Made by a program: the position numbers and the translations under genes. A stretch of 64,000 nucleotides of DNA. Source: Dactylorhiza incarnata (taxonomy: Eukaryota; Streptophyta; Magnoliopsida; Asparagales; Orchidaceae). Below, one piece after another: positions 12,851 to 36,485 of the stretch. A model generated the notes under the pieces. That model saw only the letters and a program-made list of their open reading frames with translations. It was not told where the DNA came from and made no database searches. Location of the stretch: contig JAWHQI010000068.1 of assembly GCA_033032865.1 (NCBI GenBank), positions 5,456,001 to 5,520,000 on the forward strand. The letters are read 5' to 3'. Each line of letters opens with the position of its first letter. Position 1 is the stretch's first letter.

Positions 12851-12895
12851 ACAGAAATGTTCTAGTCTGCGGATAGCCTGATTTATGCGTTTTAG

Positions 12896-15752: not shown

Positions 15753-15843
15753 TCTTGAGAAAGGGGGCATTGGGGAGTCAGCCCATTATAATTCCAAGTA
15801 CCGTAGTGAGCCCCTTACAGGGTAATCCTCGGGAAGTCCAAGA
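15753..15843 (+). ncRNA. Shared 90-nt module, copy in F 5' LTR
   Basis: 91 nt from TCTTGAG to GTCCAAGA. It shares with copies in A and G the landmarks TCTTG, GGG, CCCAT, AGTACC, GTGAG.CCC, CAGGGTA, CCTCGGGAAGTCCAAGA. UCUUG and CAAGA pair at the ends; GUGAG with CUUAC can form an inner hairpin. ncRNA is a tentative class: nothing shows an independent transcript. Confidence 0.6.
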
Positions 15844-17264
15844 TAAACCATAAATTGTAGGGATAAGTTAACGTACAAGATTAACTTAATAATGCACACA
15901 CCCACACCCCGTAGTTACGAGAGGTTAGTTGGTTTGGTTGTACGAGCGGTAGGCTCGGTGGTTGAAGCAGCAGACTAGTTAGTCCGGTGAGCTTGTGACT
16001 CAGTAATGCTAATTGGTACGGACGGGTTGGTCCGGCGAGCCGTTGGCTCAGAAGGTAATGATGACGGGCAGGATAGCCCGAGGAGTTTATGGATCGGGTT
16101 ATAGTAGAACATGTTTGCATGTGCATGAAGGTGGTGGGTCTTTGGTATTTGACTGTCGTTCACACCGACGTCAATACGTTGACTCGGTAAGTGTGGAATT
16201 TGCACTTAGCCATAAAAGTCTGGTGGTCCAGCCAGTAAGAGTACCCAGATGCTCCGCGGTTTTGCATTGAGGCGTAGGATAGGTCTAGGTTAGGTAGTGT
16301 GAATACAAACCTAGAGGTGGGCGAGGCCTAACCCACCGCTTCCGTTTGCCACTATGGGAGTATCCTGGGAATCTTGCTGGCTCCGAATAGGGGGAACTAA
16401 TGGTATGTGCGCATAGAGTCGAAGTGTGTGAGTTGCACTTATATGAACATAGCATAAACTACATAACTCTGTATGTCATGGCATAAACATTGCATTTCAA
16501 CCCCTACCCCTATCGTATAAATTGGTTATGGAACTCTTTATATGATAAGCCTTGCTAAATGACCCCTTGGTCTAGCGGTTTGTATGGGCATTCCTATAAA
16601 TCAATGGTTACTTTTATATTATATACTTGTCTTTATTTACTGCTCTTTAATTGCTCTTTACCATGCTTTATTTATTGCTTCAAATGTATATATATACCTG
16701 AGTAGTGGTAGATATTTCCTGTAGACTAGATCCGCCGTCATCTGCTTTGTTTTATACCCCTTGCTGTCCTCCGCTGCATGCTCCCACACGGTGCCTAGGA
16801 GCCATTGGGGGTGGGGTGGGGAACATAAGGCTTAGTCTTTTGACTAATGGTCGGTGTACCATATCATTTTAGGGGATCGAGGAGACGCAACAGCACTAGA
16901 GGACATTGTAGGTGGAGGCGGGCCAGTCTAGTATAGGAGCACAGAATTCTGGATCAGTGAGTGATTAATAGTTAGCTTCCGTGAGTGATCTTGTAGTGAG
17001 GACATGATGTACAGGGCATGAGCCCTTTACTATTGTAACTTTGTTATTTCAGTTATATTATGTGGACATTTATTATATATAGCATGTGATTTGTGGACTT
17101 GAACTTCTATTTGTTCGTTTATTCTTTTCTTTTTCTGTGATCGATATGGCTAGTAGGATTGGCGTTTTGTAGTGGCGACCTTCCCAAGTGATGGTTTCAC
17201 CACAAAGCGGCAGTTCTGGGCATAAGACCCAGGTTTTTTTTAAAAAAAATGGGGTCTTACAAAG

Positions 17265-17280
17265 TGGTATCAGAGCCAAA
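17265..17280 (+). promoter_or_regulatory. Primer-binding site of F
   Basis: TGGTATCAGAGCCAAA three bases after the LTR end TCTTACA; complementary to initiator tRNA-Met. Confidence 0.93.
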
Positions 17281-19190
17281 CCTCGATCTGAATAAAAGAA
17301 GTCCACAAACGCTGGGCCACCCCATGCGAGTTTAGTTTGAGGACAAACTAAGCTGCGGAAGCAATGGTTTGCCCATATGGGGAAATCACATGAAAAAGTC
17401 CACATTTAACTGAACCTTTTGGCAAGTTTTCTTTTGTTGCCTGCGGCGAACCTTGGCCCCAGCAGGGAATACCTCTGGCTACATAGATCTCTTTAGATAA
17501 TCCTTTAGTTAATGAGTTAGACTAAACCCCACCAGGACACTTGACTTACCATGACAATTTATATCATGCCCTAGTCCTGAAAGAGACCATTGATATAAAT
17601 TCGATTAAGGTCCGAGGATACCCCAAAGATATTGGAGGAAGAGCTTAAAGCCGGAACGACCACCTAAGCCATAAACTCTAATAATGATACTTCACATACC
17701 AAGGATTATCCACACTGAAAGGACTGCCTCAAGGAAATTTGATGCATAAGCAGAATGGTATGAGACTCGTGGACTCAATTCTCGTATCGGTGACATGATT
17801 ACATTGAGACAACCACCACGACAAACACCGAGGGTCAGATAAGAATTCAAGTTCAGACGAGACCCGTTTGGCATTGGGTGATATATTGACCCTGATAAGG
17901 TTGTCGTAGAAGGCACCTGGAAGAGTCTAAGGTGTGGAGTATACCAATGAGTCTCAAGATAGAACCCCAAGTCTAAGGTTGTATGCCCTAAGGATTGTTT
18001 GCATACCTAGGACGAATATATCATAGTGACACCGAAGATACTTAGCCCAAAATGGATAGTGGCTTATCTTTTGTTTATTGGGGCTTACCTTTTGTTTATT
18101 GGGCAAATTAGTTACTAACTTGGGTTTCCATTGGATCTAATTTAGAATATGTTGCGTCGTAAACAAAGTGATTTTGAGGTCGATCTTATTCAACGTTACG
18201 CAGACAAAGATGAGATGGTGTAACAATAGGTCTGGAATGATGATCTGAAGTATTACCAAGACAATGAAAGGACATCGTAGATCGAGCAATGACTTGACCT
18301 TAGTCGAAGCATTAGAAATGTAAAGTTGCTAGGTTTAGTCACTTAGGGATGCAGTAGCCTTTCTGGAAGTTGGGAACTGAAATTAGGTCGTGCAAGCTTT
18401 AGTTATATTTGAAAGTTCTGGTAGTTTGGGGCTTTCGGAAGTGATTAACTTATGATTCGTTATTAATCACGCCCTATCATGGTAGAAGATTTTAACTACA
18501 CTAATAACCCTTATACCTTGGGAGCTATGATGACGGATAAGCAGTGATCTTAGACGGTAACTTATTGGAATTAGAATATAGTGTTTGAGTTTATTATGAT
18601 AAGAACGATCTAAGTTTATCTTACTTTGGACCATCCGAAAGTGATAAAGACTCGCATATGTGGAAGTGATAAGAATTTGGTGAAATAAACGTGGTGATAC
18701 TTCCTCGATGAAATTGACTTGTGAAAAACCTTAGGGTTTCAAAAGATTTTACCCATATACCTTATGAATCAAACTCCATATAGAAAATTATTGGGAGCCA
18801 TCTTACAAACATTGATATTAGTAAAGATTGGTTAACATATACTTATAAGGTTCACAAGTGCACCACCATAAAATTTAAGGATGATTGGGACGCCTGATGA
18901 TCTGATCAGTCCCACCAATGGTAAGAACTAGATAAGTTGTAGAGTGGGGATGATTGATCACTCGGATGTACTTGAAGGAATAAGAACCTAAACATGCGGA
19001 GAAAACTTTATAGAAGCGTTGTCTACCCATATAAACAAGAGCTTTAGTCACTGGAAAAATGGTGTATTTCGGAGCGTGTGTCTCCCCAGAATAAAGAAAG
19101 ATGTCGTAGGTTTGTGATGCACGGTCAGGTCTGTAGACTGGTGAAAACCAAGTGCAAGAATATTTAGGGAACTACCACAGTCACTGCCCA
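17281..19190 (+). other. F internal region, unrecognisable
   Basis: Where gag, protease and RT would lie, I find no motif in any frame. The phrase CTTTTGTTTATTGGG occurs at about 18070 and 18096 and resembles the sequence before the right LTR (20186-20200), hinting at internal rearrangement. Confidence 0.55.
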
Positions 19191-20095
19191 TGTTAGAGTG
19201 GAAGCTCAAAGATATAATTATGGATTTCATACATAGGTTACCACATCCCCACTCTGGGTACAAGTTTGTTTGGAACATCGAGGATAAATTGACCAAGATA
19301 GCAAGGGTCACCCCGGGCTGGAAGGACACTTTCATTGGTGTTTGATGGGATTTGTTGAGCAGTTTGTCTGTTATCATGGTGTGACCAGGACGATCGTGTC
19401 GAAGTAGGATGGACGGTGTACTTCCAAAAAGTGAAGATCAGTTCAGGCTTATCTGGGCTCTTAGTTGACGTCAGCACAGCTTTCCACCCTCAGAGGGACG
19501 GAGGCGCATGACTCCACTATCTTGGATCCAGGATGAGGATCCCAAGGCTCTCGGCTCAGAATTTATGATGGACATAGATACCTAAGTGCGACTGATTTGA
19601 GTTAGGATGTTGGGGACCAGAGATGCCAGGTCAGGTATTACGATGCGTGGTATCGTCAAGTATTGTTCCAGGTTGGAGACCCGGTGTTTCAGAAGATACA
19701 TCCGATGCAGGGAGTCTTGCGGGTTCGCAGGCGAAAGAAGCTCAGTCTGAGATAGATGGGGCTCTACAGGATCCCTGTGTGGATCAGCCCGTTTGCTTAT
19801 AGACTGGAGTTTCCGCCGGAGTTAGCGGGATTGCACGACGTCTTCCATGTCTCCTCCTTTAGGAGAGCTCTACTACAGCCGGAGAAGCAAATTTCTACTA
19901 TAGGTGGCCCGATAACCTCCGATCGATTGATTCACCTAGAGCCGGTCCGGATAGACCACACCGAGGTGCGAGTCTTGCGGCGCAAGGAGGTTCCGCTGGT
20001 CAAGGTCCTGTGGAGAATTCATGGATAGGAGAAGCTTATCAGGGAGCCACTAGAAACGATGCAGCAGAAATATCCGGAGCTTTTAGCTTCAGGCA
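19190..20095 (+). pseudogene. F integrase and C-terminal end, decayed
   Basis: Fragments in several frames: WKLKDIIMDFIHRLPHPHSG near 19200 (first catalytic Asp in MDF), HGVTRTIVS near 19375, STAFHPQRDG near 19475, then an open piece 19756-20028 with AYRLEFPPELAGLHDVFHVS and VLRRKEVPLVKVLWR, and METMQQKYPELL-like residues near 20055. This order is the integrase core, GPY/F module and chromodomain-like end of Tekay/Del elements. Many stops and frameshifts; not functional. Confidence 0.87.
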
Positions 20096-20200
20096 TAATT
20101 AGTCTCTTATGGGATGTTGCATACAATCACTTGCGGTAGAAACCCAGTAGGCCTAACCTAAATTTTGAGGACGAAATTATTATTTTTGTTTATTGGGATT

Positions 20201-23200
20201 TGTAACATCCCTCAAACAACTAGACCCCTAGAGTTATTTTGTCATGAATAGGTCATGACAAAACCCTAGGAAGCACAAAAGACCATGTGAACTTAGGCAA
20301 GAAGGAGGAAAACCACTGTGGTTTGCAAATAGCAGTTTCTAGTTGAAAAGCCTAGGGTTGGACTTTAGGGCCTCACCTTGACCCTTTGACCCCACCATAG
20401 CATACCTAACCATTTAGGGGTTCCCTTAGCGCACCAAGGACTCATTGGGGTCAACCAAATAGGCCAAATTGACCAAAGTCAACCCTAACCCCAAATTGGT
20501 CAAAGTAGCCTAATTAGGGTCAATTGACCTCCACCATGCCAAATTGACCTTTCCCCTACCCTTATAAGGTTATTGGGGACTCAATGGACCAAAAATCTCC
20601 ATCATGGGGCCACCAATTTGGCCAATTTGATCTAAGTCAACTCTAGCCCTATTTTGGTCAAATTCCCCTAATGTGGATTAATTGACCTCCACTTTGCCAA
20701 ATTGACCCTACCTAGACCTTGCTAACCATTAGGGGAGTCCAATGGGTCACTAATCACCCATTGGGGCCAAACCAAATGGTCAAATAGACCAGAGTCAACT
20801 CCACCCTAAATTTAGGTCAAAATGACCTATTTTGACCTAATCAAGCCCAATCCACTTGGGCTAGACTCAATTGAGGTGGTCCACCACCTAATGGGGTTGG
20901 GAATTTATAAAATTGCCATTCAATTTTAGAGAATTCGGCCAGGAGAGAGAAAATCCCATTTTCCCCAAAAATGGAGGTGAGAGAAAGAGAGAAGTAATGG
21001 CATTCATGGCCAAGGGGAGGCCAAAGGCTCTCCCAATTGATGGGGATTCATCTCCCCTGGATGTTACAAGAATTTTAGGAGTTTTTCCATCCCACATGGG
21101 GGATGAAATGGGGAGTTTTCACCATGGCTGAACACCGCCGCCATCGTCGTCGGGCTCCAAGAAGGTCTGGTTCTTCTCCTCTTCTCTAGTGGATAGATCT
21201 ATATAAAAAATCGGCAAGGATTGGGGCCAATTGGTTCCCAATCAACATGGCCGAAATCTCCATTTTTTGAGGTTTTTCTTATTATCTAAACCACCGGTTC
21301 CGGCCAACACTGGCCAGCCAAGACCCCCCATCGTCGGCCCCCACCTCAAGGAAGGTGGTGGTTGCATTGACCGGCCGGGGAGGGGCGTGGGTGGCCGGGA
21401 AAACCACTTCCAAAACCACCCAGGTCAGAGCAATCTGAGCCGTCGGCTAGAGGCAGAAGAAAGTGGGATGCCGTCCATTTCTGCATCAAGATGTGTGCTG
21501 CAGTTTTGTTATATTATTTCGTATTTCTGTCTTTTATTTTGCTGTACATAGATTAATTTATTAAAAATACTTTGGCCCCTCTACAGAAAAAGTGGTCAAC
21601 ATTAAAGTTGTATCCCTTGGAGTCTACTTTATTGTAAAATTTGTTTTAGCCCAAAAAAAGTTCTGTAGCTCACTGTAGGTCCATTTGGGTGGGACTGGTC
21701 CCGAGTGTAGGACAGCCACCATTTCTTGAATAACTTTTGATTAGGTTATGGGATTGACTTGAAAATTGAAACCTAGGCTATTTGTACCGACACCCATAAC
21801 ATATCCAAAGATGGGAATTTTAGGAGAAACGTTTTCTAAGGTTTTTGTAATGATTTCATAATTTAAATATTAATTAATTATTGGGTCAAATGACCTCTAA
21901 TGCCCTCCAAATATTGGTGGGTACTTTTTAGGGTTATCACCTGACCCTGGTAAAAATCTCAGCCCAATTGGGACTGATTTATTTTGGAAATTGGTTAACT
22001 CAAGTTGGGTCTTATTAGGTCAAAATTAGGTCATGGTGTTTATCTTGGGATATTGTGGTCAAATCTCCTCACCATGAGGTGAAACCTTGGCCACTTGTTT
22101 AGGGTCACTCAAAACACTCCCATGAGTGTTTTTGTGTGGTGTGGAGGTGGGCATGCCCTAGAACCCTAGTCTTACCCCTTGGGGTGCATATAGAACTTTG
22201 TGAAGGACATGTGGTCAAAAGCTATAGAATGGCCATGAAATTTAGGATATATGATCATGGGGGTGTGATTATGCTCTAGGAAAATTTGAGAGAATTTTAG
22301 GAGTACTTATTCCCCTAAATTAGGTCATAACCCCTTTAGAGAAATTTCTTATAAGAGATATTTACATGCTCAAATGGTCTTGGATGATGATGAAACCATG
22401 GTAGTGACTTCATAATCATATTATAGCCCTCTGGTATTTTTTGTGTAATTTATTAAATGATTTAACCAGTACTTCATTCTCAAGGCACCTATTTTGTCTT
22501 AATCTTAAGAAAAATAATTGAGGCTCCAAAACTCTCTGGAATATGTGCAACTTGGTGATAGGACATATCAGAGCACTAGGAAGATTTGTGAATTTTTATA
22601 TAATTTTTGGAGATTGTTATCAGTAGGCTACTTCACAACATGCTCATATTAGGGTTTCTTTGGAATATTTATTTATGTGGTTAATATGCCTTTATGTGGT
22701 TAATATGCCTTTATAAATTCTAAGATATGCCTTTATAAATGTCTGGTAATATTCCCATAATTTTTGCTCCTAATTGTAAAATTGTGACACTCTGGATTTA
22801 CTGTTATTTTGGCATGATAGATTTATCCTAATTTTATGAGAGCCATATTATAAGGATACCTTACACTTCATGCTCATATTAATACTTGGCAAATATTGGA
22901 GAAATGATAATAAATGCAAATAATTAAGGAAAAAATATGATTCTCTGGATTTAGTTTTGAAACATCATGATAGACCTCTAGTAAATATCTTGAGTCAGTT
23001 GGATGAATATTTGGAGTGCTCCTACTTATTAGCTTCATATAGTTAGTTGGTCTGCGTATAGTAAAAATGTGAAACTTGGGTATTTAAGGGCCTACCAAGT
23101 GGAAGTGGCATGTAGTTGGTGTGCATGGTCAGGATGAAGAGGATAAGGTCATCAAAGAGTAGTTTAGGAGATGAGAGTGTTGGGTGAGCTAAGGGTAAGG

Positions 23201-24827
23201 TCGTGCTTGGGATTGATGAAAGATCGTCTTTCGCCTAGCGTGTCATAAACAACATAGGGTTAATACAAGTGAAACAGTAAGAGGGCTATGCTTATGGGTT
23301 GATACCAACAACACTAAGTGTCTTGAGAATGGAGGATTTGGGGTGTCATCCCATTATAGTTCCCCGTACCGTATCGAGCCCCTTACAGGGTAATCCTCGG
23401 GAAGTCCAAGATATACCATAAATTGTAGGGATAAGTTGATGTATAAGATTAAATAAATAATGCACACACCCACACCCCATAGTTACGGGAGGTTAGTTGG
23501 TTTGGTTGTACGAGCAGTAGGCTCGGTGGCTGAAGAAGCAGACTAGTTAGTCCGGTGAGCTTGTGACTCAGTAATGCTTATTGGTATGGACGGGTTGGTC
23601 CGACGAACCGTTGGCTCGGAAGGTTATGATGACGTGCATGATAGCCCAGGGAGTTTAAGGCTCGGGTTATAGTAGAACATGTTTGCATGTGCATGAAGGT
23701 GGTGGGACTTCGGTAATGGACGATCGTTCACACCGACGTCAATACGTTGACTCGGCAAGTGTGGAATTTGCACTTCGCCATGAAAGTCTTGTGGTCCAGC
23801 CAGTAAGAGTACGCAGATACTCCGCAGTTTTGCGTTGAGGCGTACGATAGGTCTAGGTTAGGTAGTGTGAATACCCACCTAGAGGTGGGCGAGGCCCAAC
23901 CCACCGCTTCTGTTTGCCACTATAGGAGTATCCTGGGAGTCTTGCTAGCTCCAAAAAGGGTGAACTAAAGGTCTGTACGCATAAAGTCGAAGTGTGTGAG
24001 CTGCACTTGTATAAACATAACATAAACTGCATAACTCTGCATGTCATGGCATAAACATTGCATTTTAACCCATACCCCTATCGTATAAATTAGTTATGGG
24101 ACTCTTTATACAATAGGCCTTGCTAAACGACCCCTTGGTCTATAGGTTTGTATGGGAATTCCTATAAATCAATGGTTACTTTTATATTATATACTTGTCT
24201 TTATTTACTGCTCTTTAATTGCTCTTTACCATGCTTTATTTATTGCTTCAAATGTATATATACCTGAGTAGTGGTAGATATTTCCTGTAGACTAGATCCG
24301 TCGTCATCTTCTTTGTTTTATACCCCTTGCTGTCCTCCGCTGCATCCTCCCACACGGTGCCTAGGAGCCATTGGGGGTGGGGTGGGGAACATAAGGCTTA
24401 GTCTTTTAGACTAACGGTCGGTGGACCATATCATTTTAGGGGATCGAGGAGACGCAACAGCACTAGAGGATAGTGCAGGTGGAGGCATGCCAGTCTAGTA
24501 CAGGAGCACAGGATTCAAGATCAGTGAGTGATTAGTAGTTAGCTTCCGCGAGTGATCTTGTAGTGAGGACATGATGTACAAGGCATGAGCCCTTTACTAT
24601 TATAACTTTGTTATTTCAGTTATATTATGTGGACATTTATTATATATAGCATGTGATTTGTGGACTTGAACTTCCATTTGTTCGTTTATTCTTTTCTTCT
24701 TCTGTGATCGATATGGCCGACAGGATCGGCATTTTGTAGTGGCGACCTTACCAAGTGATGGTGTCACCGCAAAGCGGCGGTTCTGGGCATAAGACCCGGG
24801 TTTTTAAAAAAAAATTGGGGTCTTACA
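20201..24827 (+). repeat. 3' LTR of F
   Basis: 4627 bp, TGTAACATCC...TCTTACA, preceded by ttattgggatt in place of a long PPT. It provides the empty site for S. Confidence 0.94.
23321..23411 (+). ncRNA. Shared 90-nt module, copy in F 3' LTR
   Basis: Partner of the copy at 15753-15843, 91 nt, with about ten differences; the ends TCTTG and GTCCAAGA are unchanged. Confidence 0.6.
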
Positions 24828-24852
24828 TCTTCGCTTTAGATCGAGGAGCCAT
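24828..24852 (-). pseudogene. Antisense frame in G, start codon part
   Basis: ATG at 24852 (minus) opens MAPRSKAK; after removing F and one TCTTC copy the frame continues in phase at 11506 as KSAELAVAAAAVGVP before its first stop. A basic N end followed by an Ala-rich stretch. This shows that the frame existed before F landed in it. Confidence 0.6.
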
Positions 24853-24895
24853 CTTCCACATTATTATAAGAAAAATAAAAATTAAACAAGAATCA

Positions 24896-24966
24896 CTAGC
24901 GCTAGCACTAGCATTAGATCCAGGCGCTAGCACTAGCGCCTGCAGTAGTGCTGGCACTAGTCCTAT
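24896..24966 (-). repeat. Internal GCGCTAGC cluster of G, right
   Basis: tagcgctagcactagc, then ggcgctagcactagcgcc (a near-perfect hairpin) and agtgctggcactag, 45 to 115 bp upstream of the antisense start codon. Same motif as the G U3. Confidence 0.75.
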
Positions 24967-25049
24967 GATCTAAAACACTAGATCTACCTACTATGCAATG
25001 TTACCGAATCCTAACCTTCTCAAATAGCTACATCCAAGAATCCCACATG

Positions 25050-25420
25050 TTCTAGGTAAAATAAAAACTAGAAATCTTCATAAAAATTCAAAATGTAAAA
25101 CAAAAATCATAAAAAATAGTGGAGATCCTATTTTGATCTAACCTTCTTCTAGATCCATCATCAAAATCAAAAGTTTTCTTAAATGAGTTCTTAAATCTTC
25201 ATCACAAACATCAAAATCAAATCTTTAAAACAAGAATCATAAAAATGATGAAGATTTGTCCTAGTTCCTCTCTTTAAAAAACAAAAAGATCAAACATCTT
25301 AGATCTATGATCTAAACCACTTGATAACTTCAAATATCTTCATCTTTAACATCAAAATCAAAGTTTAAAATAAAAACCATAAGAAATGATGAAGATTTAC
25401 CTTAGATCTATACGTGGGCT
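25050..25420. repeat. Degenerate tandem repeat in G
   Basis: About three copies of a 110-130 bp AT-rich unit containing catcaaaatcaaa, aaacaagaatcataa and atgatgaagattt. Confidence 0.6.
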
Positions 25421-25494
25421 GTGCTATCTGATAGGTTTTTTGGAAGAGCTTGAGGTGTAATGGCCGAAATGATAAGGGAAAGGAGATTTAACTA

Positions 25495-25531
25495 ATGCAG
25501 CGCTATCGTTAGCGCGGGCGGTATCGCTTGG
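25495..25531. repeat. Further GCGCTA hairpin in G
   Basis: gcgctatcgttagcgc (arms GCGCTA/TAGCGC with one central change) followed by gcgggcggtatcgc; same motif family as the U3 cluster. Confidence 0.6.
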
Positions 25532-25788
25532 TTCTAATTTTCTGTATTTTTAAAATTTTAGAAAATCCCTAAAAATATGCTCTATTATATGTACTACTTA
25601 TTTTTGCATTTCTGTCTTGAATTGATTTTTGGAAAAAAAAATACAAAAGCCAAATTACAAAAAATATTTTTTACTCCCTTTCTTTGTTTATTTGTTTGAT
25701 TTCTATTTCTATATGCAAAAATCAAATACAAAAATATAAAAAAAGAATTATCAAAAATCATTTTTTTAAACTTTTCTATTTACATGTA

Positions 25789-25878: not shown

Positions 25879-27240
25879 TCAATTATAAGTGTTCAAACTT
25901 TAAAACAATTTTATAAAATCTAAAAAAAACTGTATGGATTTTATTGTTTATATCAAGCATGATTTCATCTTTCATTTAGACCTTCTACAATGTTGGAATT
26001 CATTTTTTTCAATCTACTTTGAACATTATTTTTATCATGCTTTGATATATCTAATCACATGTGCATAAATTGTATTGACAAAGTGTTGTGTAAAACTAAG
26101 CGTAGCATGCCTCTAATAATGAGTAAATGTTTTATGTTTGATAATGATCTTTCTTCACGCACTTATTTTGGCAAAGTTTACATGTGCTTCTAATCTAAGA
26201 ATGCTTGCCTGTGTATTGTAATTGTACAATGAATTAAATTTGCACAAGTATCTTACCTACAGTACTTTTATTTGCACTCTTAAAATTAAGAAAAGTGGTT
26301 GTGCTTTTAAAACTTCATTGGTTTGCAAAACAAGTGTATTCAGAGAGCTTTGTACAAAACAAAAAAAATGAATGAAATAAAATGACAAAGATAACTCCAC
26401 CAAGCACTACTTGAACCTCCTAATAAGTCTTAATGAGCATTGTGAGGTTGAGAACCTTGGAAAGAATAGTAAAGTGTCTTGTGCAAACCATAAATTGTTT
26501 CTTTACACCACTTGGTCTTTTCAATGTGCGATGAAGGGTGTTGAAGTAAATTATTTGTGTTTTATTGTGCACTTTACTCTACATTTGTCTTGTATTTTTG
26601 ATTAAATCATTTATTTACTCTCTTCAAAATACACTTATGTGCACACCATTATCTTCCATAACACTTCTTCTCATGAGAATTGGATCCTAATGCTAAATTA
26701 TATACTCTCTTTATATATAAAATGCACTAGATAACCTAGCATGCTCTCTACAATGTTTGGTATGTTTTGAGTTTGTGGATTACAATAACATTGTAGTAGT
26801 TTCTTTTTTGATATCTTTTTTCATGCTTGGTTATTTTATGGTAATCTTTAAAGACTAAAAGAAAAATGATTTACAAAAACATCTTATTCTTTTGGACTTT
26901 CACTTATATTTCTTCTTATGAATCGTCATGTTTACTAAAAGATGTTTCTTGTATTTCTATAAGTCTCCCGCAACATTACCATATAACTTTTACCTTGTGT
27001 TTTTTATGCTTATCTCAAGTCTTAAAACTCAGAATTCCTTTTCTTTAACAAAGTGGCAGACTTGCTTGGTAATTTTTATATTGTTCTCTTTATGCTAAAA
27101 AACTCTGATCTATTTCTAAAAATTTTAATGCTTAAAACTCCTTATCATTTCATTTCCTCTAAAAAGCTTGATCATGCCTTATCTTTTTATCAAAAAATCC
27201 TCTTTTTGTGTTTATTGCTTCCTTGCCCACTTTTGCAAAT
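25879..27240 (+). other. G 3' untranslated region
   Basis: AT-rich, with short frames of no recognised type. Perhaps the remnant of an env-like or pol region, but no motif supports this. Confidence 0.5.
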
Positions 27241-27244
27241 AACA

Positions 27245-27512
27245 AAAGGGGGGAGAACTAACATGATAAATATTAATTGCTATCAAATGGGAAAACTAAC
27301 ATGACTAATGATTAAGATGATCGCTTAGATATTAGGGGAGCATTCACATGGGGGGAGCATGTATTTAGGGGAAGCAATTCTATATACTTATATCGACATT
27401 ATCCTAAGTCATCACTTTCACACACACACACACACACAAGTAGGTTTCATCATCCTTATATATTAATGCTCAGATTTATCATTAATGGATTTGTTATTAT
27501 CAAAAAGGGGAG
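27245..27512 (+). promoter_or_regulatory. Multiple polypurine tracts of G
   Basis: Purine tracts aaaggggggag (27245-27255), aggggag (about 27333), atggggggag (about 27348), aggggaag (about 27367) and the terminal aaaaaggggag (27502-27512) before TGTTGG. Repeated PPTs are described for Sireviruses. A (CA)9 run lies at about 27420-27438. Confidence 0.8.
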
Positions 27513-27514
27513 TT

Positions 27515-28603
27515 TGTTGGAACAGGGTCTTCCACATCTCCTAGGTTTGAGAATAACAAATCCTATGTGTATTTCATCTTGTGTGCTTAAGTGTGCAGGA
27601 AATAAGTCCATATGACTCAAGGATAACATAAGAAAGTTGCCCCAAGATTTGAACCCAAAATTCCAACATGCACACTAGCGCCAGTGGTAGCACCTAGCGT
27701 AGGCGCTAACTATGATTAGCGAAATTCCGGGAGCATCTTTAGATGGATTTAGCGCCAGACGGTAGCGGATAGCACATGCGGTAGCGTGAAACACAAGAGG
27801 CAAGGCGGCAGATTTTCCCTGGAATGAAAGATATGCGCTCACAGAATAATTCTATATCGGGATAGCGTCGGCGCTAGCGCTAGCGCAGGCGCTAGCGCTC
27901 ACTCCTATAAAAGGAGGACTCTTCTCTCGTTTTCCTTACACAAGTTTTATGGAGGTTGAGTGCTAGAATTCTAGAGCCTTATTCTGCTGAAAAGTGATCT
28001 CCCACCAAAGTAACGTGAATTTCTGAAGGAGGATTTCTTCACGTCGTATCCGACCGAAGATCGCTTCATCAACGCTTATACTACAACGGTCCTTCGTCTC
28101 AAACTTCAGAAGTTCTTCAGAGGGAGATTTTAATATTAATGTCATTTAAATTCACATCTTTTCTTATTATCATTTAGTAAATTCGCATCGTGTTGATGAC
28201 TAGGTCTGGGTAGGACTTAGGGTAGAAATTCACCTCGTGTTGGCGACTGGGTCTATGGTGTAGATCTACGGGGTGTTCGAGGCCATTTCTGAGGAAGGAT
28301 TGGCTAGAGCGGCTTGAGGCCATATCCTGGGAAGGATAGGCTAGGGCCACCGGTTCGTGAGGATACGATTCGGGATAGAAAATGAAAATGAGTCTATTAT
28401 TATTCGCCTCCGATTTCTAGCGTTATAAGAAATCAAGTTTTGTAAAGTGTTCTTTTCATATTAATAAAATGATGTCTCATTTTTATTTGCTTAATTTCTT
28501 ATCATAGTCTCTTATATTTTCAAATATAACAAAATATATCGTAGGTTTTTAAAACCCTTATTCACCCCCCCCCCCCCCTCTAAGGGCGCACACCCATCCA
28601 ACA
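27515..28603 (+). repeat. 3' LTR of G (1.09 kb)
   Basis: TGTTGG at the start and CCAACA at the end. Contains the U3 palindrome cluster, TATA box 27906-27913, repeats in R (aggccat, ggctag phrases at about 28280-28345) and a C14 run at about 28565-28578 in the TATTCACCC...CTCTA context shared with the copia LTRs C1 and C2. Confidence 0.9.
27673..27913 (+). promoter_or_regulatory. G U3 palindrome cluster and TATA box
   Basis: Motif GCGCTAGCGC and partial forms (tagcgcc, gtagcg, ggcgcta) from 27673, densest at 27871-27898. TATAAAAG follows at 27906-27913, itself within CTCCT-ATAAA-AGGAG. Confidence 0.82.
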
Positions 28604-29304
28604 CCTCCCCCTCTCCAAATTGTTAAAGCCTAAACTCAAGGAGACCACTGGAATTTATAGGAAATAATTCCAAGTTACACGCCCCTGGTCACGGGCGTGA
28701 CTGGGGTGCGTGTAAGCACTGTTCATCTCAGCTTCGACAATGGCGTGGGTCTTGCGTGATGGCACAATGAAAAAGGGAAATAAACGCCTGTGTAATGTTG
28801 GTCACAGACATGTAATCTAGCAGCTTCATTAAATGCGGCGTGGGTCTAGATGATGGCATGGCGGTGAGCAGAGATCATGCGCAAATGTCACGGGCGTGAC
28901 TTCTGGGTCACGAGCGTGACTTGGGTTGACTTCTCGACGACATCTCCACTTCTCGACGGCAACATTGCTGGCAGGATCCTATGTTTACACGCCACAGGTC
29001 ACGGGCATGACCCTTGGGTCATGGGGATGACTGGGGGGCGTGACTTGCTGTGAACGAGCTCAAATGTGCGACACCAATTCTGGACTAGTGTTTAGGTTAC
29101 ACGCCCCTGGTCATGGGCGTGACTGGGGGCGTGTAATGCAATTTTCCCAAATTTGTCCCAAAATTCTGCAAAAATAAACATAAGCCAAATTAGAATCCAA
29201 TTTTATAAAACTATGTATAACCTAAAAATGACATGAAAAAGAAAAATTCAAATTAAATAATTACTAAAATTTCTATTAAAAAGTTATATAAAAATTACTT
29301 ATCA
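28604..29304 (-). repeat. 3' LTR of A, interrupted by G
   Basis: Matches 38701-39413 closely. The remainder should lie left of the window beyond G. TATA box (CCTATAAA) at 28654-28661. Confidence 0.9.
28675..29140 (-). repeat. A U3 hairpin cluster, 3' LTR copy
   Basis: GTCACG-GG-CGTGAC hairpins, two of them set inside an outer stem TTACACGCCCC/GGGCGTGTAA (28675-28715 and about 29097-29138). Several copies have single decayed CpG sites. Confidence 0.85.
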
Positions 29305-29321
29305 AATACCCCCATACTTAA
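29305..29321 (-). promoter_or_regulatory. Terminal polypurine tract of A
   Basis: CTTAAGTATGGGGGTATT on the minus strand, directly before TGATAAG of the 3' LTR; same phrase as B at 56309-56325. Confidence 0.88.
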
Positions 29322-30445
29322 GGTTTTGCTATTCCAGAGCAAAAGTATGAGACATAATTTATAAGACATTCATAAAAATTTCTAATTATAAACTAAAATT
29401 TCATGAAAAGTAACTTATGAATAAATTCTAGGAGGAGTTAAGTCCTAAATTATGATGATGATTTGAAAAGAGGGAAAGTGTTTAGGAAAGAACTTCTCAA
29501 GATAATTAATTAGTTAACAAAATTATAGAAATTAATAAACTAGATTAAATTAAAATTATATGAACTCTATCATAAAAGAAACTTAAGGAAAAGTAACTTA
29601 CTAAATATTGCTCTCTCCATAGTTTAAACTAAATCTAGATCAAAGATAATTGGCGAAGGGGGATTTCACAAAATTTGGCATAAGAAGAGATTTTTGAAAC
29701 TCAAAATTTATTTTCTAATTTGTATATGTTTAGGAGTAATGAATTTTATCCTCTTACTCCATGCCATATAATCTCTTATAATTCTCTTCAAATAAAAACA
29801 AAAAATGTATATGTTTAGGAGTAATGAATTTTCTCCTCTCACTCCATGCCATATAATCTCTTAAATGAATTTGGGTGCATATGTTTGGGGAATAATCGAT
29901 TTTATCCTCTTATTCCCATGACATATGATCCTTTAAAATATGTTTTCTTATGCCATCAAAAGTGGTGGGTAGGAAAAATTTCTAGCATATAAATTAAATT
30001 ATGTTGAGAGCAAATTCTAGTAAATTTAAATTTCCTAAGATCTATAAAGCTAAAAGAAAATATAATAGAAATCTAAAGTGGTTTAACAAATTTACTACAA
30101 AACGAAGCCATTTAAAATAAAAAGAGAAGTCATGCTTAAAAAAATTCTCTAATCAAGCTCAAATCATAAATTGATTCTTAAAACAAGATTACCTAAAATT
30201 TAAATTTAATAAACTATGATAAACAAAATTTTAGCCAATTAAAAACCTAAAAATGCTTTTAAATATTCTCAACTAGATTTCTAAGAACTCACAAAAACAA
30301 CAAGTAGGGGTTTTATAAAAAATTTGGGTTTTCTGTTTTATGTTTTTTTTCATATATTTTTTTGGAATTTTTGATATATTTTTTTTTCGGATTTTGATAA
30401 TGAAAGAAAGGAAAATAGTTTTAAACCCAACATTTTTTTGTTAAT
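29322..30445 (-). other. A spacer between the two PPT motifs
   Basis: AT-rich; no coding motif. In Athila elements this is where an env-like frame can lie, but none is seen. The phrase atatgtttaggagtaatgaattt occurs twice in tandem-like fashion at 29720-29850, with a third diverged copy near 29880. Confidence 0.6.
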
Positions 30446-30535
30446 TCTTGGACTTCTCGAGGTATAGCCCATGAAGGGTTCTCAACGGTACTAGGAGGTG
30501 AGATGGGATGATAGCTCAAACGTCCCTTTCCAAGA
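30446..30535 (-). ncRNA. Shared 90-nt module, 3' copy in A
   Basis: 90 nt on the minus strand, TCTTGGAAAGGGACG to AGTCCAAGA, between pol and the 3' LTR. The closing stem UCUUGGA/UCCAAGA is 7 bp. About 14 differences from the leader copy, none in the closing stem. Confidence 0.65.
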
Positions 30536-30665
30536 TTTAAATTTATTATTTTCTATTTTTTTTGAATTTTTGGGTTTTACATGTGCTTAAATAAAAGAAA
30601 ACATAAGAAAACATTTTTTTTTTACAGATTTTCTAAATTAAGAACTACATTTTTAAGAGCTATTT

Positions 30666-30702
30666 ACACCCCCATACCTAAAGTTAAACATTGTCCCCAA
30701 TG
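30666..30702 (-). promoter_or_regulatory. Internal PPT-like motif of A with CATTG.CAATG palindrome
   Basis: Minus strand: CATTGGGGACAATG then, 7 bases on, TTTAGGTATGGGGGTG. The same pair of motifs occurs in B at 39871-39906. Confidence 0.7.
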
Positions 30703-31039
30703 ATTAAAACAAAGTATGAAGTAAAAAAAGTAAATAATGTGCAATACAAAAAAAAGAAATGCAAGATAAAAGAGAAAGAAGAAGAAGGAAAAAGGGCCTC
30801 CCTGATTTTGAGGATCCGGGGGGAAGCGGCGGTTACCTACAAAACATGTTAAAGAAGAAACAAAAACAAGAGAAAACAAATAAAAAGATAACTTTGTGGT
30901 GCCTCCCAAAAGCGCTTTATTTAAGGTCGCGTAGCTTGACCCAATTGGCGCTCACGATATTGGTGGAAGAATTATTGAATCACTCTTTTCGTTCGAAAGA
31001 TCTTCTGGAAGATATTACTTAAGGCGGTGCCCATTTACT

Positions 31040-31972
31040 TTGAAGGAACCTTTTTCCGGGTGGGAAATTCGGATTGTCCCATAGGACCAAACCTCTTTAA
31101 CAATAAAGGGTCCGAACCATCGAGATTTTAGCTTTCCCAGAAAATGGCGAAGGCGAGATTTTAGTTTTTGAAAATTTTATATTTTTATCGTGGTAAAACT
31201 TTCTTCGCTCCTTTAATAATTTGTCGCCTTCGTACGCATTCGCTCGCCACTCATCTAATTCATTCATTTGAAATTTCCTTTTCTCGACCGCTAACGTAGA
31301 ATCGAGATTTTGAAATTTAAGCGCCAAAAATGTGCGGTCTTTTAGTTCGACCAGAAGATGAAAAGCCTTGCCATAAACCAATCGATATGGTGCACAATCG
31401 ATATAGGTCTTGTTCGCCGTTCGATAGGCCCATAACGCGTCATCGAGCTTAAGCGCTCAGTGCTTCCGATTAATAGAAATAGTTTTTTCCAAAATCAACT
31501 GTAATTCTCGATTTACGACTTCGACTTGGCCGCTCGTTTGTGGGTGATAAGCAGTGGAGAGTTTGTTCCTGACACCATATTTTGCTAAAAATTTTGTGAA
31601 TTGGCTATTGCAAAAATGGGTACCGCGATCACTAACTATAGCACGATGCGTACCAATTTGATAGAATATATTTTTTAAGAAGTTAATGACAACTCTCGCA
31701 TCATTGGTGGGGAGAGCTTGCATTTCTGCCCACCTTGACACGTAGTCGACCGCAACGAGAATGTATTTGTTTGAAAAAGAGGGAGGGAGGGGACCAACGA
31801 AATCAATACACCAAAGATAAAAAATTTTGTATTCTAAGAAAATATTTTGGGGCATCTCATCCCGGCGGAAGATGTTCCCCGACTGCTGGAAGCTGTCGCA
31901 AGCACTCACAAGGGTGTGAGCATCTTTGAAGAGTGTGGGCCAATAAAAGCCCGCCTTCAGCGCCTTCCTCAC
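31040..31972 (-). pseudogene. A integrase
   Basis: Open piece 31457-31972 holds FYWPTLFKDA of the zinc domain, CIDFVGPLPPSF (first Asp), SDRGTHFCN (second Asp) and TSGQVEVVNREL (third residue Glu kept). The zinc domain has SFQQSG where CxxC-type residues are usual. After a frame change, 31097-31381 gives the C-terminal part (AFHLLVELKDRTFLALK). Athila-type integrase, decayed. Confidence 0.87.
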
Positions 31973-32042
31973 GGTTCAGTTCGCTTGATAATGACCACCG
32001 GTTGGTCCCTCGTGACAATGCCGTAAATTTTTTATACCTTCC

Positions 32043-32744
32043 TCAATCGAAATGCATCTTCTCACTACCTGGTTTGCACAAACACGGAATAAAAAGGGGT
32101 TCCTCACAAAAATAATTCTTTAAATCAGAAAAGAATTTCTTCTTTTGCTGACTCGAGAATTCTGTTGGTAGGACCCGGGCTACTAGATAATTAGCCAAAT
32201 CCGCAAACCAGGGGGTGGAAGATGTATTTAAATTTTCGAGAGTGAGGAGGCGCTCTTTAGGGAATTTATCATTAATGTTGACTTCTATTAACGCTTCCGT
32301 GGCGGGATTTTCTAAACAGGAAAGATGATCGGCCGTCAAGTTTTCGGTTCCCCTTTTGTCCCGGATCTCTAGATCAAATTCCTGCATGAGGAGGATCCAT
32401 CACAAAATATGGGTCTTGGCATTCGATTTACTTAAAAGATATCTAAGAGTGGAGTGATCTGTGAAGACGATAACTTTTGAGATAGTGATGTACGACCTAC
32501 ACTTATCAAAAGCAAAAACAATTGCTAGAAGCTCCTTCTCAATAGTGGTGTAGTTTTCTTGTGCCGACGTGAGTGTCTTGCTTGCATAATGAATTGGGTG
32601 GAAATACTTACTCACCCGTTGACCTAATACAATGCCTACCACAATATCACTCGCATCACACATAATTTCGAAGGGTAGCGACAAATCCGGCGCAACTAGA
32701 ATCGGAGAATTTATAAGCTTTTCTTTGATAAGTTTAAAGGCCAA
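32043..32744 (-). pseudogene. A RNase H and linker
   Basis: RNase H degrades RNA of the RNA-DNA hybrid. IMCDASDIVVGIVLGQ (first Asp) and KELLAIVFAFDKC (Glu), then FTDHSTLRYL (Asp), in 32400-32744; after a frame break, LEIRDKRGTENLTADHLS in 32043-32387, the RNase H end and linker to integrase. Confidence 0.87.
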
Positions 32745-33942
32745 GTGGAATTCATCATTAAAATGGAAAGAAGATTCTTTTGCGAGAAGATGAGTAAACG
32801 GCTTCGTGATTTTGGAAAAAATTTGTACAAAGCTCCGATAAAACCCTGCGGTCCTAGGAAACTCCTAATAGCTTTTACATTTGCTGGAGGGGGGAGTTTT
32901 TCGATTACTTCGATCTTGGCCCTATCAACCTCGATCCCTTTGCCCGATATTTTATGGCCAAGGTCTAATCCTTCTTTGACCATAAAATGGCATTTCTCCC
33001 AATTAAGAGCAAAAATTGTTTCCTCACAACATTGTAGCACCCGCTCGAGATTTTTTAAACAATTTTTGAAAGAGTTTCCGAAAACGGAGAAGTCGTCCAT
33101 GAAAACCTCCATCACTTCCTCTACTAACTCGTCGAATATCGCCAACATACATCTTTGTAATGTAGCCAGCACGTTACAAAGACCAAATGACATCCTTCAA
33201 TATGCGAAGGTGCCAAAGGGACAAGTGAATGTTGTTTTCTCTTGGTCGTCGGGCGAAATAGGGATTTGAAAGTATCCCGACAAACCATCGATAAACAATA
33301 GTAGGAGTGACCTGAAAGGTGCTCTAAGATTTGATCGATAAAAGGTAACGGGAAGTGATCCTTACGGGTGGAATCATTTAGTTGTACGGGTTGGGATCAA
33401 TTCATTATTTTCATTTGCTACTACCGTTATGCCGCCTTTTTTTGGCACGACTTGTACTGGGCTAACCCAAGTACTATACGATATCGGGTAGATGATTCCC
33501 GCATCTAAATTTTGATAACTTCAGCCTTAACAACTTCTTTCATATTCGGGTTTAGCCGTCGTTGAGACTGGACCGTGTTGCGGGAATTATCCTCGAGGAA
33601 GATTTTATGAGTGCAGAAGGAAGGGTTAATACCCTTGATATCCGATATTTGCCACGCAATTGCGTGTCGGTGATTGCTTAAGACTATAGTCAATTCAAAA
33701 ATTTCCGGATCCCTAAGTTCGGATGACACAATAACGGGTAGCTTAGAGTCTTTTTCTAGAAATAGATACTTTAGGTGAGGAGGGAGTTGTTTCAATTCAA
33801 GGACGGGTGGTTCTTCATATGAAGTTTTAATTTTCAATTTTTCTAAATATAGTGGTTCGGGTGGTGTGGAGAGAGAGACTTCTTCTTCAAGACAAAAGTG
33901 CTTGGCGTGCTTAGAATCAGTACACAATGTGGAGACTAACAC
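32711..33942 (-). pseudogene. A reverse transcriptase
   Basis: 33505-33942 holds the linker before RT (SNHRHAIAWQISDIKGI), and 32711-33193 the palm with catalytic FMDDFSVFG. Between them the frame is lost: compared with element I at 63300-63345, about 40 bp coding the WRMCRDYRKLN motif are missing near 33383. RT function is destroyed. Confidence 0.87.
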
Positions 33943-33981
33943 GGGAAGTGAATAAAACTCGTTCTCAAAACATTCTTCTAA

Positions 33982-34440
33982 TTAGTAGCACGAATCGTCT
34001 TTCTCTAAGGTGTTTCGCATCGAGGGATTTATACTAAAAGTAACTTCATCGTCTCCAACCCGAAGGAGGAGCTTTCCGTTACTTACATCGATAATTGCGG
34101 GCGAGGTGGCAAGGAAGGGGAGGCCGAGTATGAGGGGTACTTCGGCATCCTCTTCGATATCAAGAATGACAGTCCACCGGGAAGATGAACTTGTCAACCT
34201 TAACGAGCACATCCTCCACTATCCCTATTGGATATTTTAATGAACGATCGGCGAGTTGAATACTCATTCGAGTGGGGCTAAGTTTCCTAGGCCTAAATTT
34301 TTGAATAACAAAAAAGGCATGGTGTTGATGCTTGCTCCAAGATCCGCTAAGGCGTGCATTATTAATGAATTGCCAAATAGACACGGGATGGAGAACCGTC
34401 CCGGTCATTTGCTTTTTGAGGCAATTTGTTGAGTACAACC
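33982..34440 (-). pseudogene. A protease region
   Basis: LADRSLKYPIGIVEDVLVKV followed, one frame over, by EVPLILGLPFLATSPAIIDV: the conserved Athila/Tat segment at the aspartic protease. The active-site D(T/S)G is not clear. A small frameshift lies near 34180. Confidence 0.8.
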
Positions 34441-35187
34441 GTGGAGCATTCTGCGTATAAGGAAATATGCAAAATATCTTCCAATATCTTCTTATTCAAG
34501 AGCAACTCCTTAAGATATTTTGCATACTTCAGCATTTGAGAGATAGCCTCGCAGAAGGGTACATTAATATGAATTTGTTTTAAAATTTCTAAATTTTTTT
34601 TGTAATTTTTCTCAGCGCACTCGCTCGTAAGCTTAGATGGATACATAATATTTGAACTAGAAGTGTGCGTATCTAGCGTAGCGGGCAAAATTTTATGATA
34701 AAATAGGAGTAGGAGGAGGAGGAGAAAGTGGAGAGGAAGTTACCTTGGGTTTGTCCTGTTTTTAAACCACCTCCTTCCCGCTTAAGAGTGTGATCACGGT
34801 CGCGCTCTCCCTTGGATTTGGCTCCGTATTCCCATGTAAAGTTCCTTGCTGGCGCTCGGAGAACATTTTTGCTAGCTTCCCCACTTGATTCTCTAAATTT
34901 TTTATCGATTCGGTGAGGTTCTGAATGTTTGATTCATTAACAACAACATATTTTGCAAAGACCTCTTCAAACGGAGAGTGCTTTTGCGGTGGAAAACCGG
35001 GTGGATTAAAGTTTGGAGGGGGAGTTGGGTTAAGAAGTTGATTCGGAGGTTGATTCATATTTAAAGGACGCTGAGTATTTCCTTGGTTGCTCCACAAGAA
35101 ATTCGGATGGTTCCTATAACCCGCATTGTAGGTGTTGTTGTACGGAGCGGAGTTCGGGTTATAAGAAGGCCGAGGTGGACTTCCCAT
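34362..35187 (-). pseudogene. A gag C-terminal half
   Basis: 34762-35187 opens with a Pro/Asn-rich segment containing YRNHPNFLWSNQGN, the conserved Athila gag phrase, then a coiled-coil helix (IKNLENQVGKLAKMF). 34362-34688 carries an amphipathic Lys-rich helical part. No zinc knuckle is visible. Confidence 0.8.
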
Positions 35188-35295
35188 GTAGTCAACCTAC
35201 TCTTCCACTTGGAGGATTAGAGGCAGAGGAAACAGACATCTCTGCCACTTGCTTTAGTAAGCGCTCAACTTCTAAAGCTAAATTAGAAACAACGT

Positions 35296-36174
35296 CTATT
35301 TCAAAAATTCTGGTTGGCCAAAAATTCTGGTTGGCTTATTAGGCCATGCTCGGGGCAAGTTCCATTGATAAGCATTCATGTCCATTTCCTCAAATAACTC
35401 TTGAGCGGCCTCCAGGGTCTTTTTATTTAATGTACCCTCGGCGGCCGCATCAATCATTTGCCTAGTTTGGAAATTCAAGCCATTATAAAAGATTTGCACT
35501 TGTTGCCAAGTAGTAAGTGCGTGGTGAGGGCATCTACGCAAAAGCTCCTTGAAGTGCTCCCATGTATCATAGAGAGTCTCTGAGTCAATTTGCATAAATG
35601 ACGCAATATCTGTTCGCAATTTGGCGATCTTTGCAGACGAGAAATATTTAGTGAGAAATATTTCTGCCATATCGGCCCATGTTGCTGCACCATTTGAGCC
35701 AAACCACTGCATGGCCCTAGACCACAAATAAAAGGGAAAAATATGTAATCGAATGGCATCATCGATGATGCCATTGATTTTAAACGTGTCACATATTTCG
35801 AGAAAATTAGAAATATGATAGTTTGGATCTTCGTCCGGCTGACCATCGTAGGTCACTTATTGCTGCACCATTTGTATGATGCTAGACTTGATCTCAAAAT
35901 TATTATTCGCCACAGCGGGTCGAACAATACTTGATTGCCTGCCTTCTAGATTCGGCTGTGTATAATAGGATATGGTCCGTTGTGCAGCCTTATTAGGATT
36001 TAACGCGTTAGGATCAGGAAGATTAAGATTGGGATCCAAATTTGTTGTGTTAGTGTCCCCGATCGACTCTTCGAATGATAAATGTATTTCCTGATCACGA
36101 GAATGGCAGCACAGCGAAAGGGTTCGCTCGATCTTTGGATCAAAAGGAATATTCAAAGCGCTACCTTGGGTCAT
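35296..36174 (-). pseudogene. A gag N-terminal half
   Basis: ATG at 36174. One frame with a single stop near 35857; the second part is a Retrotrans_gag domain: PNYHISNFLEICDTFKING, RLHIFPFYLWSRAMQWF, and TWEHFKELLRRCPHH. The N-terminal part is Asn/Pro-rich. The leader with the shared module precedes it. Confidence 0.87.
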
Positions 36175-36294
36175 ACACTAAAAAGGATAAAGGGAAAGAA
36201 GAAAGAGAAAATAGAGAATAATAAAACTAAAAATAAATAAAGAGGAAAACTTGATTATTATAAATTTTTTTTTCTTTTAGGCGGATTAAGTTAG

Positions 36295-36384
36295 TCTTGG
36301 ACTTCTCGAGGTATACCCTGTGAGGGGTTCTCACCGATACTAGGAGGTGCGATGTGATGATAACCCAAACGTCCCTTTCCAAGA
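36295..36384 (-). ncRNA. Shared 90-nt module, leader copy in A
   Basis: 90 nt on the minus strand between PBS (36486) and gag ATG (36174). Closing stem UCUUGGA/UCCAAGA; inner hairpin GUGAG-AACCC-CUCAC. The position after the PBS is where packaging or dimerisation signals of retroelements usually lie, so such a role is a fair guess. Confidence 0.68.
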
Positions 36385-36485
36385 TTTAATTTACACCCTT
36401 AAGATTTTCGAAATTAGAAAAAGTAAAATAAAATAATATAATAAAGTTAATAGCTATCCTCTTTTCAAAATATCTATGCAAAAGC

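Follow-up and report, generated by a model that had tools for sequence, protein, structure and literature searches.

A discrete 90-nt non-coding cassette in three unrelated LTR retrotransposon lineages of the orchid Dactylorhiza incarnata

Copia and gypsy elements are generally taken as separately evolving lineages, and short domains common to otherwise different repeat families are known from SINEs, the Angio-domain being an example. The orchid cassette described here differs from the Angio-domain in that it lies inside LTR elements, and neither a SINE body nor a SINE tail was recognised next to it. In retroviruses, the constitutive transport element is a small 3' cis element present in unrelated retroelements, a likeness that holds at the level of general description rather than of compared sequence or structure.

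Cassandra retrotransposons carry a 5S rDNA-related sequence in their LTRs (PMC10853983) and, as presented in that source, have in common with the orchid elements a discrete conserved non-coding module at a fixed place. The orchid cassette, however, gave no 5S match, occurs in three unrelated families, and is located in the leader, in the 3' region or in the LTR. The conserved non-coding motifs of sireviruses, described as polypurine-tract copies and CGG-CCG repeat boxes of a single genus (PMC2829016), are likewise found upstream of the 3' LTR in a copia lineage, whereas the orchid cassette is a 90-nt module common also to gypsy elements. Finally, BARE2 is a plant LTR element that is unable to make its own Gag but keeps packaging and dimerisation signals (PMC3735527); these are cis-acting signals, a function that for the orchid cassette would be putative, and the excerpt of PMC3735527 considered here does not mention sharing between copia and gypsy elements.

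The cassette and its host elements

A discrete non-coding cassette is present in three unrelated LTR lineages of the orchid. In the window, i.e. the whole stretch of 64,000 nucleotides that was analysed, the five copies of 90 or 91 nt reported in the initial annotation are found where it had placed them (Table 1) and can be aligned end to end. Searches with single copies (nhmmer, 64-kb window) recovered the other lineages at E-values of 1.4e-7 to 6.3e-13 and rendered no further window copy (next matches, E > 1), nor did a structure-aware model find an additional one there (next match, E 0.14). The edges of the cassette are sharp in strict BLAST, and in a loose BLAST of the three elements it was the sole F-G, F-A or G-A match at E < 1e-5. 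Of the seven landmarks that had been proposed for all copies, TCTTG is letter-perfect in the five, but the other six are not: AAAGGG is broken in the 3' LTR of F, TCATCCCAT in the 5' LTR of F and the A leader, and CAGGGTA in G and the 3' copy of A; CTAGTACC is intact only in the 3' copy of A and GTGAGNCCC only in the 5' LTR of F; and G reads AACTCC at the last landmark, of the CCTCG type. One frame is open in both A copies and encodes similar peptides, but the reading frame is not kept from lineage to lineage, since copies are either 90 or 91 nt long, and translated frames of a typed consensus of the module gave nothing in a protein search.

Table 1. Cassette copies and host-element features in the window.
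Feature	Position	Strand	Remarks
Module copy, 5' LTR of F (Tekay/Del-like gypsy), 91 nt	15753..15843	+	
Module copy, 3' LTR of F, 91 nt	23321..23411	+	genome matches too
Module copy, 3' untranslated region of G (copia, Sirevirus-like), 90 nt	25789..25878	+	genome copies too
Module copy, 3' region of A (Athila-like gypsy), 90 nt	30446..30535	-	3' copies in 7 other Athila elements
Module copy, 5' leader of A, 90 nt	36295..36384	-	genome copies too
Element F	11512..24827	+	start TGTAACATCC, end TCTTACA; flanked at either end by a 5-bp target duplication, TCTTC
PBS of F	17265	+	
Chromovirus-like integrase end of F	19756-20025	+	SH3_Tf2-1, E 6.5e-8
G, 5' part	8376..8887	+	Met-type PBS and gag-like frame (Retrotran_gag_2, E 1e-3, below curated cut-off)
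G, 3' part	24828..28603	+	polypurine-tract cluster by eye; 3' LTR about 27515-28603
Element A	28604..39416	-	limits approximate; 5' LTR about 39416-36510, 3' LTR about 29307 down to G edge 28603
Athila-type PBS of A	36486..36504	-	3 mismatches to an Athila PBS
Gag frame of A	35296..35856	-	Retrotrans_gag, E 7.1e-15
Integrase core of A	31457..31975	-	rve, E 3.1e-18

The names Tekay/Del, Sirevirus and Athila are labels that we take over from the initial annotation or from general knowledge rather than from a reverse-transcriptase tree. The PBS of A is presumably of the Athila type, as judged by comparison with an Athila PBS sequence, and the A-leader copy begins 120 nt downstream of it (minus strand, 36504), which places this copy inside the 5' leader, before gag. 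For G, assignment to copia finds no support in a pol gene of its own, none having been seen among frames read by eye and three frames analysed with Pfam, and a protein search with its gag-like frame gave no match at the cut-off; but its relative L028 carries, upstream of the module, a copia RNase H frame (59% identity over 118 aa to the frame adjoining RVT_2 in a window element), and the G family is for this reason considered copia.

All copies examined in the three lineages are in the sense orientation of their own element, in agreement with the initial annotation. Because the copies represent only three or four independent placements, the probability of finding sense copies alone by chance is 1/8 to 1/16.

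Copies across the genome and their relationships

A 28-place pattern, which spans only the opening third of the cassette, rendered 2,689 + 2,652 = 5,341 exact matches in the 3.27-Gb assembly, and the reversed pattern, as a control, rendered none. TGA follows GAAAGGG at about 60 of the 100 places listed, as counted by eye, and in none of the 30 G or 30 A-leader copies that were fetched. With the G copy as query, 40 of 2,055 first-look candidates were scored (92-100% identity) and the best 30, including the window copy, were fetched, all of which form one group with G by both their upstream and their downstream flanks. With the A-leader query, 40 of 3,179 were scored (93-100% identity) and 30 fetched, again including the window copy; by the downstream flank all 30 group with the A leader, and in 28 of them a PBS starts 106-134 nt upstream. 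The upstream flanks from this query are AT-rich, and by them G and A copies were lumped together, with L051 standing alone. For F, 40 of 202 candidates were scored (89-100% identity) by module match alone, and they included three close same-strand pairs, 5.3, 7.6 and 11.4 kb apart, a spacing as expected of LTR pairs. In the copies fetched, the cassette is thus at a fixed inherited place in the A and G families, for which the shared flanks exclude a recent chance landing; the paired matches indicate that it is probably inherited at a fixed place in the F family also.

Among 14 Athila elements that were fetched further, 7 have a second module copy, always in the same sense; 8 of the 14 extend across the 3' site, and all 7 are among these. 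In L077 the 3' site appears empty, but it was rejected as such, since a deletion that removed most of the module together with about 148 nt of flank explains the missing copy. Mean distances were 0.044 among leader copies (a value biased low by the way in which copies were selected), 0.096 among 3' copies, 0.13 between leader and 3' copies of different elements, and 0.09-0.17 within an element, and the leader and 3' copies of Athila make up largely separate, position-specific groups. The two Athila copies match over 98 nt, about 8 nt beyond what is shared with other lineages, which is the trace that one duplication inside Athila would leave. An inference based on the window only, namely that both copies were identical when A inserted (LTR distance 0.119, module distance 0.121), was withdrawn, since the two position-specific groups make that equality a coincidence. 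Near the corresponding place, no module is seen in two Athila relatives of the window, namely A0 (PBS at 39479) and the 3' region at 55230-56743; internal deletion seems to have affected A0, and in the other the homology begins just past the module site, so that loss is as likely as original absence.

Over 91 columns, near-fixed differences amount to 4 between the leader and 3' copies of A, 6 between A leader and G, and 8 between A 3' and G, and, with F represented by its two window copies only, to 12 between G and F, 14 between A leader and F, and 15 between A 3' and F. The modules of A and G are therefore nearer to each other than either is to F, at odds with the gypsy and copia classes, and because of this discordance plain descent fails as an explanation, as the initial annotation had argued on other grounds. 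Exchange of the cassette between gypsy and copia elements is well supported.

Folding, known repeats and insertion as a passenger

It had been proposed that the cassette is a structured RNA, with paired ends and an inner hairpin serving as a packaging, dimerisation or RNA-fate signal, which we now consider unlikely. The complementary ends are there, with 5 bp in the five window copies and 7-8 bp in Athila, but the inner GUGAG/CUYAC stem is out of register between F and A, with a shift of two columns between the F 5' LTR and the A leader. The consensus energy of the five window copies was reached by 12 of 500 column shuffles (14 of 500 with three copies, 27 of 500 without the F 5' LTR), a suggestive result, but the antisense strand gave 85 of 500 and the inner hairpin by itself 83 of 500. 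Invariant columns are 29 of 38 paired and 23 of 53 unpaired ones (15 of 24 paired without the closing stem, p 0.11), and of the columns with near-fixed differences between groups 1 of 19 is paired, tests that are partly circular because the structure was chosen on the same sequences. Most changes in helix 3 are compatible with G-U pairing, and 2 of the 24 pairs that RNAalifold finds for the window copies show a double change, but with an unfavourable covariation term (+1.44). Folded singly, none of these copies is clearly better than its shuffles (z of 0.62, 0.25, 0.10, -1.09 and 0.16). Among 64 copies (56 distinct) no double change affects any of the 19 named pairs, or any of the 22 pairs in RNAalifold's own structure, and no measure stands above shuffles; with 63 distinct copies the energy was reached by 49 of 200 shuffles in sense and 87 of 200 in antisense, and in three balanced draws of 11 by 3, 27 and 9 of 200 in sense and 13, 27 and 14 in antisense. 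With fold energies like those of shuffles, no double change among the 56 distinct sequences and both strands alike, the folded-RNA idea is not supported so far.

An origin from 5S rRNA, the cassette being an internal promoter as in Cassandra, is extremely improbable and was rejected. By eye, its 3' end resembles GGGTGACCTCCTGGGAAGTCC of what we take to be the plant 5S sequence, and 13 and 17 of 1,000 shuffles scored as well as the two F copies. Under stricter scoring, however, 50, 145 and 271 of 1,000 did so for G, A 3' and A leader; the typed consensus scored 22 against 5S and 22 against its reverse complement; and no 5S was detected at E<=10 in the four copies scanned, or at gathering cut-offs over the window. 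Known Rfam families were also rejected, since none matched the module at gathering scores (at E<=10, the four copies other than that in the F 5' LTR gave matches far below cut-off only, for example mir-492, E 0.0019, 22.3 of 76 bits). As for tRNA-derived SINEs, no tRNA was called in the window, and A and B boxes or a tail were not found by eye. In IMG/VR, 13 contigs shared only a 17-mer tail of the module, a longer pattern gave 0 matches and two pol proteins had no relatives, and GTDB genomes gave 0 module matches, both collections possibly omitting records near the window. Literature searches by sequence and topic found no such module described, which does not prove its absence.

It can also be the case, although we lean against it, that the cassette is a functionless passenger, a short dispersed element (MITE- or SINE-domain-like) that was inserted by chance in the founder of each family and amplified along with it. 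Terminal inverted repeats of the kind used to recognise MITEs are present, 5-8 bp long (TCTTGGA...TCCAAGA), and conservation reaches 90% or more in 13 of their 14 columns; complementary ends of 5 bp, lying no more than 3 nt from the edges, occur in 28 of 1,728 90-mers of the window (3 of 1,728 with 7 bp). Both A sites and the G site have AT-rich surroundings, the folding signal is alike on both strands, and the A leader copies are flanked, one base off each edge, by an 8-bp repeat that is imperfect, with 7 letters in agreement, and would fit an insertion. By eye, however, no exact target-site duplication was seen at any of the four placements, all four are sense and non-coding, and no copy was seen outside these families among the 60 best matches and the seven Athila 3' copies with flanks; the 60 fetched copies, best matches only, all lie at two fixed places by their downstream flank. 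Module diversity is lower in the G and A-leader sets, in samples biased because copies were picked by module similarity. The one constraint test with copies chosen independently of the module, at the 3' Athila site (seven fetched copies and window A), gave a diversity of 0.098 for the module, whereas other 90-nt segments averaged 0.131 and 133 of 610 of them were equally low, i.e. no significant constraint, as a passenger would show.

A proposed transferable cassette

The most likely explanation, with a hitchhiking passenger close behind, is a transferable cis-acting cassette whose function we infer. For its full form, a cassette of ~90 bp acquired as a unit by at least three LTR families and kept at fixed sense sites, we see an even chance. 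The ancestors of the Athila-like gypsy, the Tekay/Del-like gypsy and the Sirevirus-like copia would each have acquired it whole, a single duplication inside the Athila-like lineage would have given rise to the leader and 3' copies, and the families would since have passed it on at fixed, sense, non-coding places. Template switching between co-packaged RNAs could account for its spread, as could insertion of a short element that had inverted ends, and it may have been retained because it serves the transcript as a cis-acting signal. At the leader site, 106-134 nt after the PBS start, one would expect a packaging or dimerisation signal, and at the 3' sites an export or stability element.

It is possible, if doubtful, that the cassette acts as a cis-acting 'passport' by which unrelated gypsy and copia transcripts gain entry to the same step (packaging, export or protection). 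If so, selfish elements would evolve by trading regulatory modules across superfamilies. The fact that copia and gypsy elements both have this module fixed, at defined places and, among the copies examined, all in one orientation, points to non-coding exchange between superfamilies. To our knowledge, little is known of packaging and export signals in plant retrotransposons, and one 90-nt piece in several hosts provides a handle on what their non-coding parts do.

The cassette and its host elements in the window

The non-coding sequence of 90/91 nt shared by three LTR elements of the window is a real and discrete cassette. The statement of the initial annotation that its five copies align end to end was borne out over 90/91 nt, and each single copy used as a query against the window recovered all the others, with E-values of 1.2e-18 to 3.3e-19 within a lineage and of 1.4e-7 to 6.3e-13 across lineages. 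Further copies in the window were found neither in these searches, in which the next matches have E > 1, nor by a structure-aware model. With strict BLAST the similarity ends a few bases from the TCTTG...CAAGA edges; with loose scoring the module is the sole F-G, F-A or G-A match at E < 1e-5, and this match reaches up to about 140 nt into the flanks.

The host elements are F (Tekay/Del-like gypsy), G (Sirevirus-like copia) and A (Athila-like gypsy), the lineage names being provisional and in part those of the initial annotation. F carries the module in both LTRs and G about 1.6 kb ahead of its 3' LTR. Apparently G is of the copia type, with interruptions by F and a gypsy element (about 790-8361). 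For the open gypsy pol frame (3304-5853), the closest proteins come from the orchid Platanthera zijinensis (best 87% identity, 86% query coverage).

Features of the window
Feature	Coordinates	Strand	Description
Element F	11512-24827	+	Long LTRs, TCTTC target duplication, Met-type PBS (primer-binding site), decayed chromovirus-like integrase end
F LTR repeats	11742-12123; 20432-20813		Three direct repeats each, period 158 bp
Element G			gag-like frame, polypurine-tract cluster, 3' LTR
Element A	28604-39416	minus	Athila-like; PBS at 36504; gag, RT and integrase matches
A leader module	36384-36295	minus	5' leader of A
A second module	30535-30446	minus	3' region of A
Direct repeats	53464-53626		Period 33 bp, four overlapping copies

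Of the 91 sites in the two F modules (15753-15843 and 23321-23411), 11 are different, and there are three adjacent doublet changes; the LTR K2P distances are 0.063-0.067, and conversion by another subfamily possibly accounts for the module divergence. An Rfam snoR71 match at 35515-35622 (+; 43.7 bits, cut-off 40), antisense within the A gag frame, is possibly due to chance or a captured snoRNA. A0 (39456-39912, +), an Athila relative, has a leader start that agrees with A at 71%, followed about 150 nt further by sequence resembling the A 3' region, and is apparently internally deleted; window searches found no module in it.

Copies elsewhere in the genome

Searches of the 3.27-Gb assembly containing the window gave direct evidence that the cassette is inherited at fixed sense sites in two families. 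The G module yielded 2,055 first-look candidates, 40 of which were scored (92-100% identity) and 30 fetched, including the window copy; all 30 cluster with G on the upstream as well as on the downstream flank. The assignment of the family to copia comes from locus L028, in which a frame that terminates some 450 nt before the module shares 59% identity over 118 aa with a window frame adjoining RVT_2. Unlike loci L017, L021 and L027, whose frames up to 1.5 kb upstream of the module resemble, by eye, the G frames at 9060-9874, L028 has a copia RNase H frame, and the family perhaps comprises a non-autonomous and a pol-bearing form.

The A leader query gave 3,179 candidates (40 scored, 93-100%; 30 fetched, including the window copy). 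All 30 share one downstream-flank group; the AT-rich upstream flanks merge G and A copies, leaving L051 alone, and are therefore uninformative in that grouping. An Athila-type PBS lies 106-134 nt upstream of the module in 28 of the 30 (0-4 mismatches in 21). About 7.4 kb downstream was fetched for 14 of the 30 loci, and seven of these 14 carry a second module in the same sense 4.7-6.0 kb further. The 3' region across the module site was recovered in eight, these seven and L077, where most of the module is deleted along with flank. In a tree the leader copies group away from the 3' copies that were fetched; the window 3' copy and the L077 leader copy are placed near the base.

Fixed sense inheritance probably extends to a third family: the F query gave 202 candidates (40 scored, 89-100%), among which three one-strand pairs, known from positions alone, lie 5.3, 7.6 and 11.4 kb apart, as LTR pairs would. 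A 28-place pattern covering only the opening third of the module has 2,689 forward and 2,652 reverse exact matches genome-wide (reversed control, 0), and 36 matches were obtained for a 35-place pattern in which C or T precedes TCTTG (control, 0), among which there are several sequence types, so that types other than A, F and G exist. Among the module-start matches, two that belong to a rare type (GGGAACTTTGGGG; G000:C88:2264045 and 2273507) lie 9.5 kb apart on one strand, and are perhaps an LTR pair or the leader/3' pair of a further family.

Transfer, folding and constraint

Pairwise module distances are 0.19-0.22 between A and G, with F set apart at 0.30-0.41, and near-fixed differences follow the same pattern; plain descent therefore does not account for a module shared by one copia and two gypsy lineages. 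The cassette has moved between superfamilies. The two Athila placements have 98 nt in common, an excess of about 8 nt over the other lineages that agrees with a single acquisition and a single duplication. All copies examined have the same sense, as had been claimed for the five window copies, but this bias alone is weak evidence because the independent placements number three or four.

The initial annotation had read the cassette as a folded RNA with paired ends and an inner hairpin. Fold energies of the five window copies are near the shuffle mean (z of 0.62, 0.25, 0.10, -1.09 and 0.16), and RNAalifold gave double changes in 2 of 24 pairs; its covariation term is unfavourable. For the five copies, 12 of 500 column shuffles in sense and 85 of 500 in antisense reached the observed energy; the numbers were 49 and 87 of 200 for 63 distinct copies, and 3, 27 and 9 (sense) and 13, 27 and 14 (antisense) of 200 for three balanced draws of 11 copies. 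Across 56 distinct sequences the proposed structure is paired in 94.0% of cells, with double changes in none of its 19 pairs and no measure above shuffles; RNAalifold's own structure for that alignment has none in 22. With such energies and no double changes in either structure across the 56 sequences, the folded RNA as originally stated is improbable. The complementary ends are real (13 of 14 columns conserved at 90% or more) and as compatible with inverted DNA ends as with an RNA stem. One of 19 near-fixed group-difference columns is paired, in a structure chosen partly on the same sequences, and this scarcity is suggestive.

Module diversity is below flank diversity in sets picked by module similarity, a comparison biased by that choice. 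At the 3' Athila site, where seven fetched elements and the A of the window were selected independently of the 3' module, the module has a diversity of 0.098, compared with 0.131 on average for other 90-nt windows; values as low occur in 133 of 610 windows, and the module is gap-free. These values are no firm evidence of selection on the module. An imperfect repeat beside the leader copies, and the limited weight of A0 and of a relative near 55 kb as cases lacking the module, leave the following odds as they are. That the cassette is a passenger hitchhiking with its hosts is a possibility, on the doubtful side, and a putative cis-acting role in the elements that carry it is, in our judgement, an even prospect.
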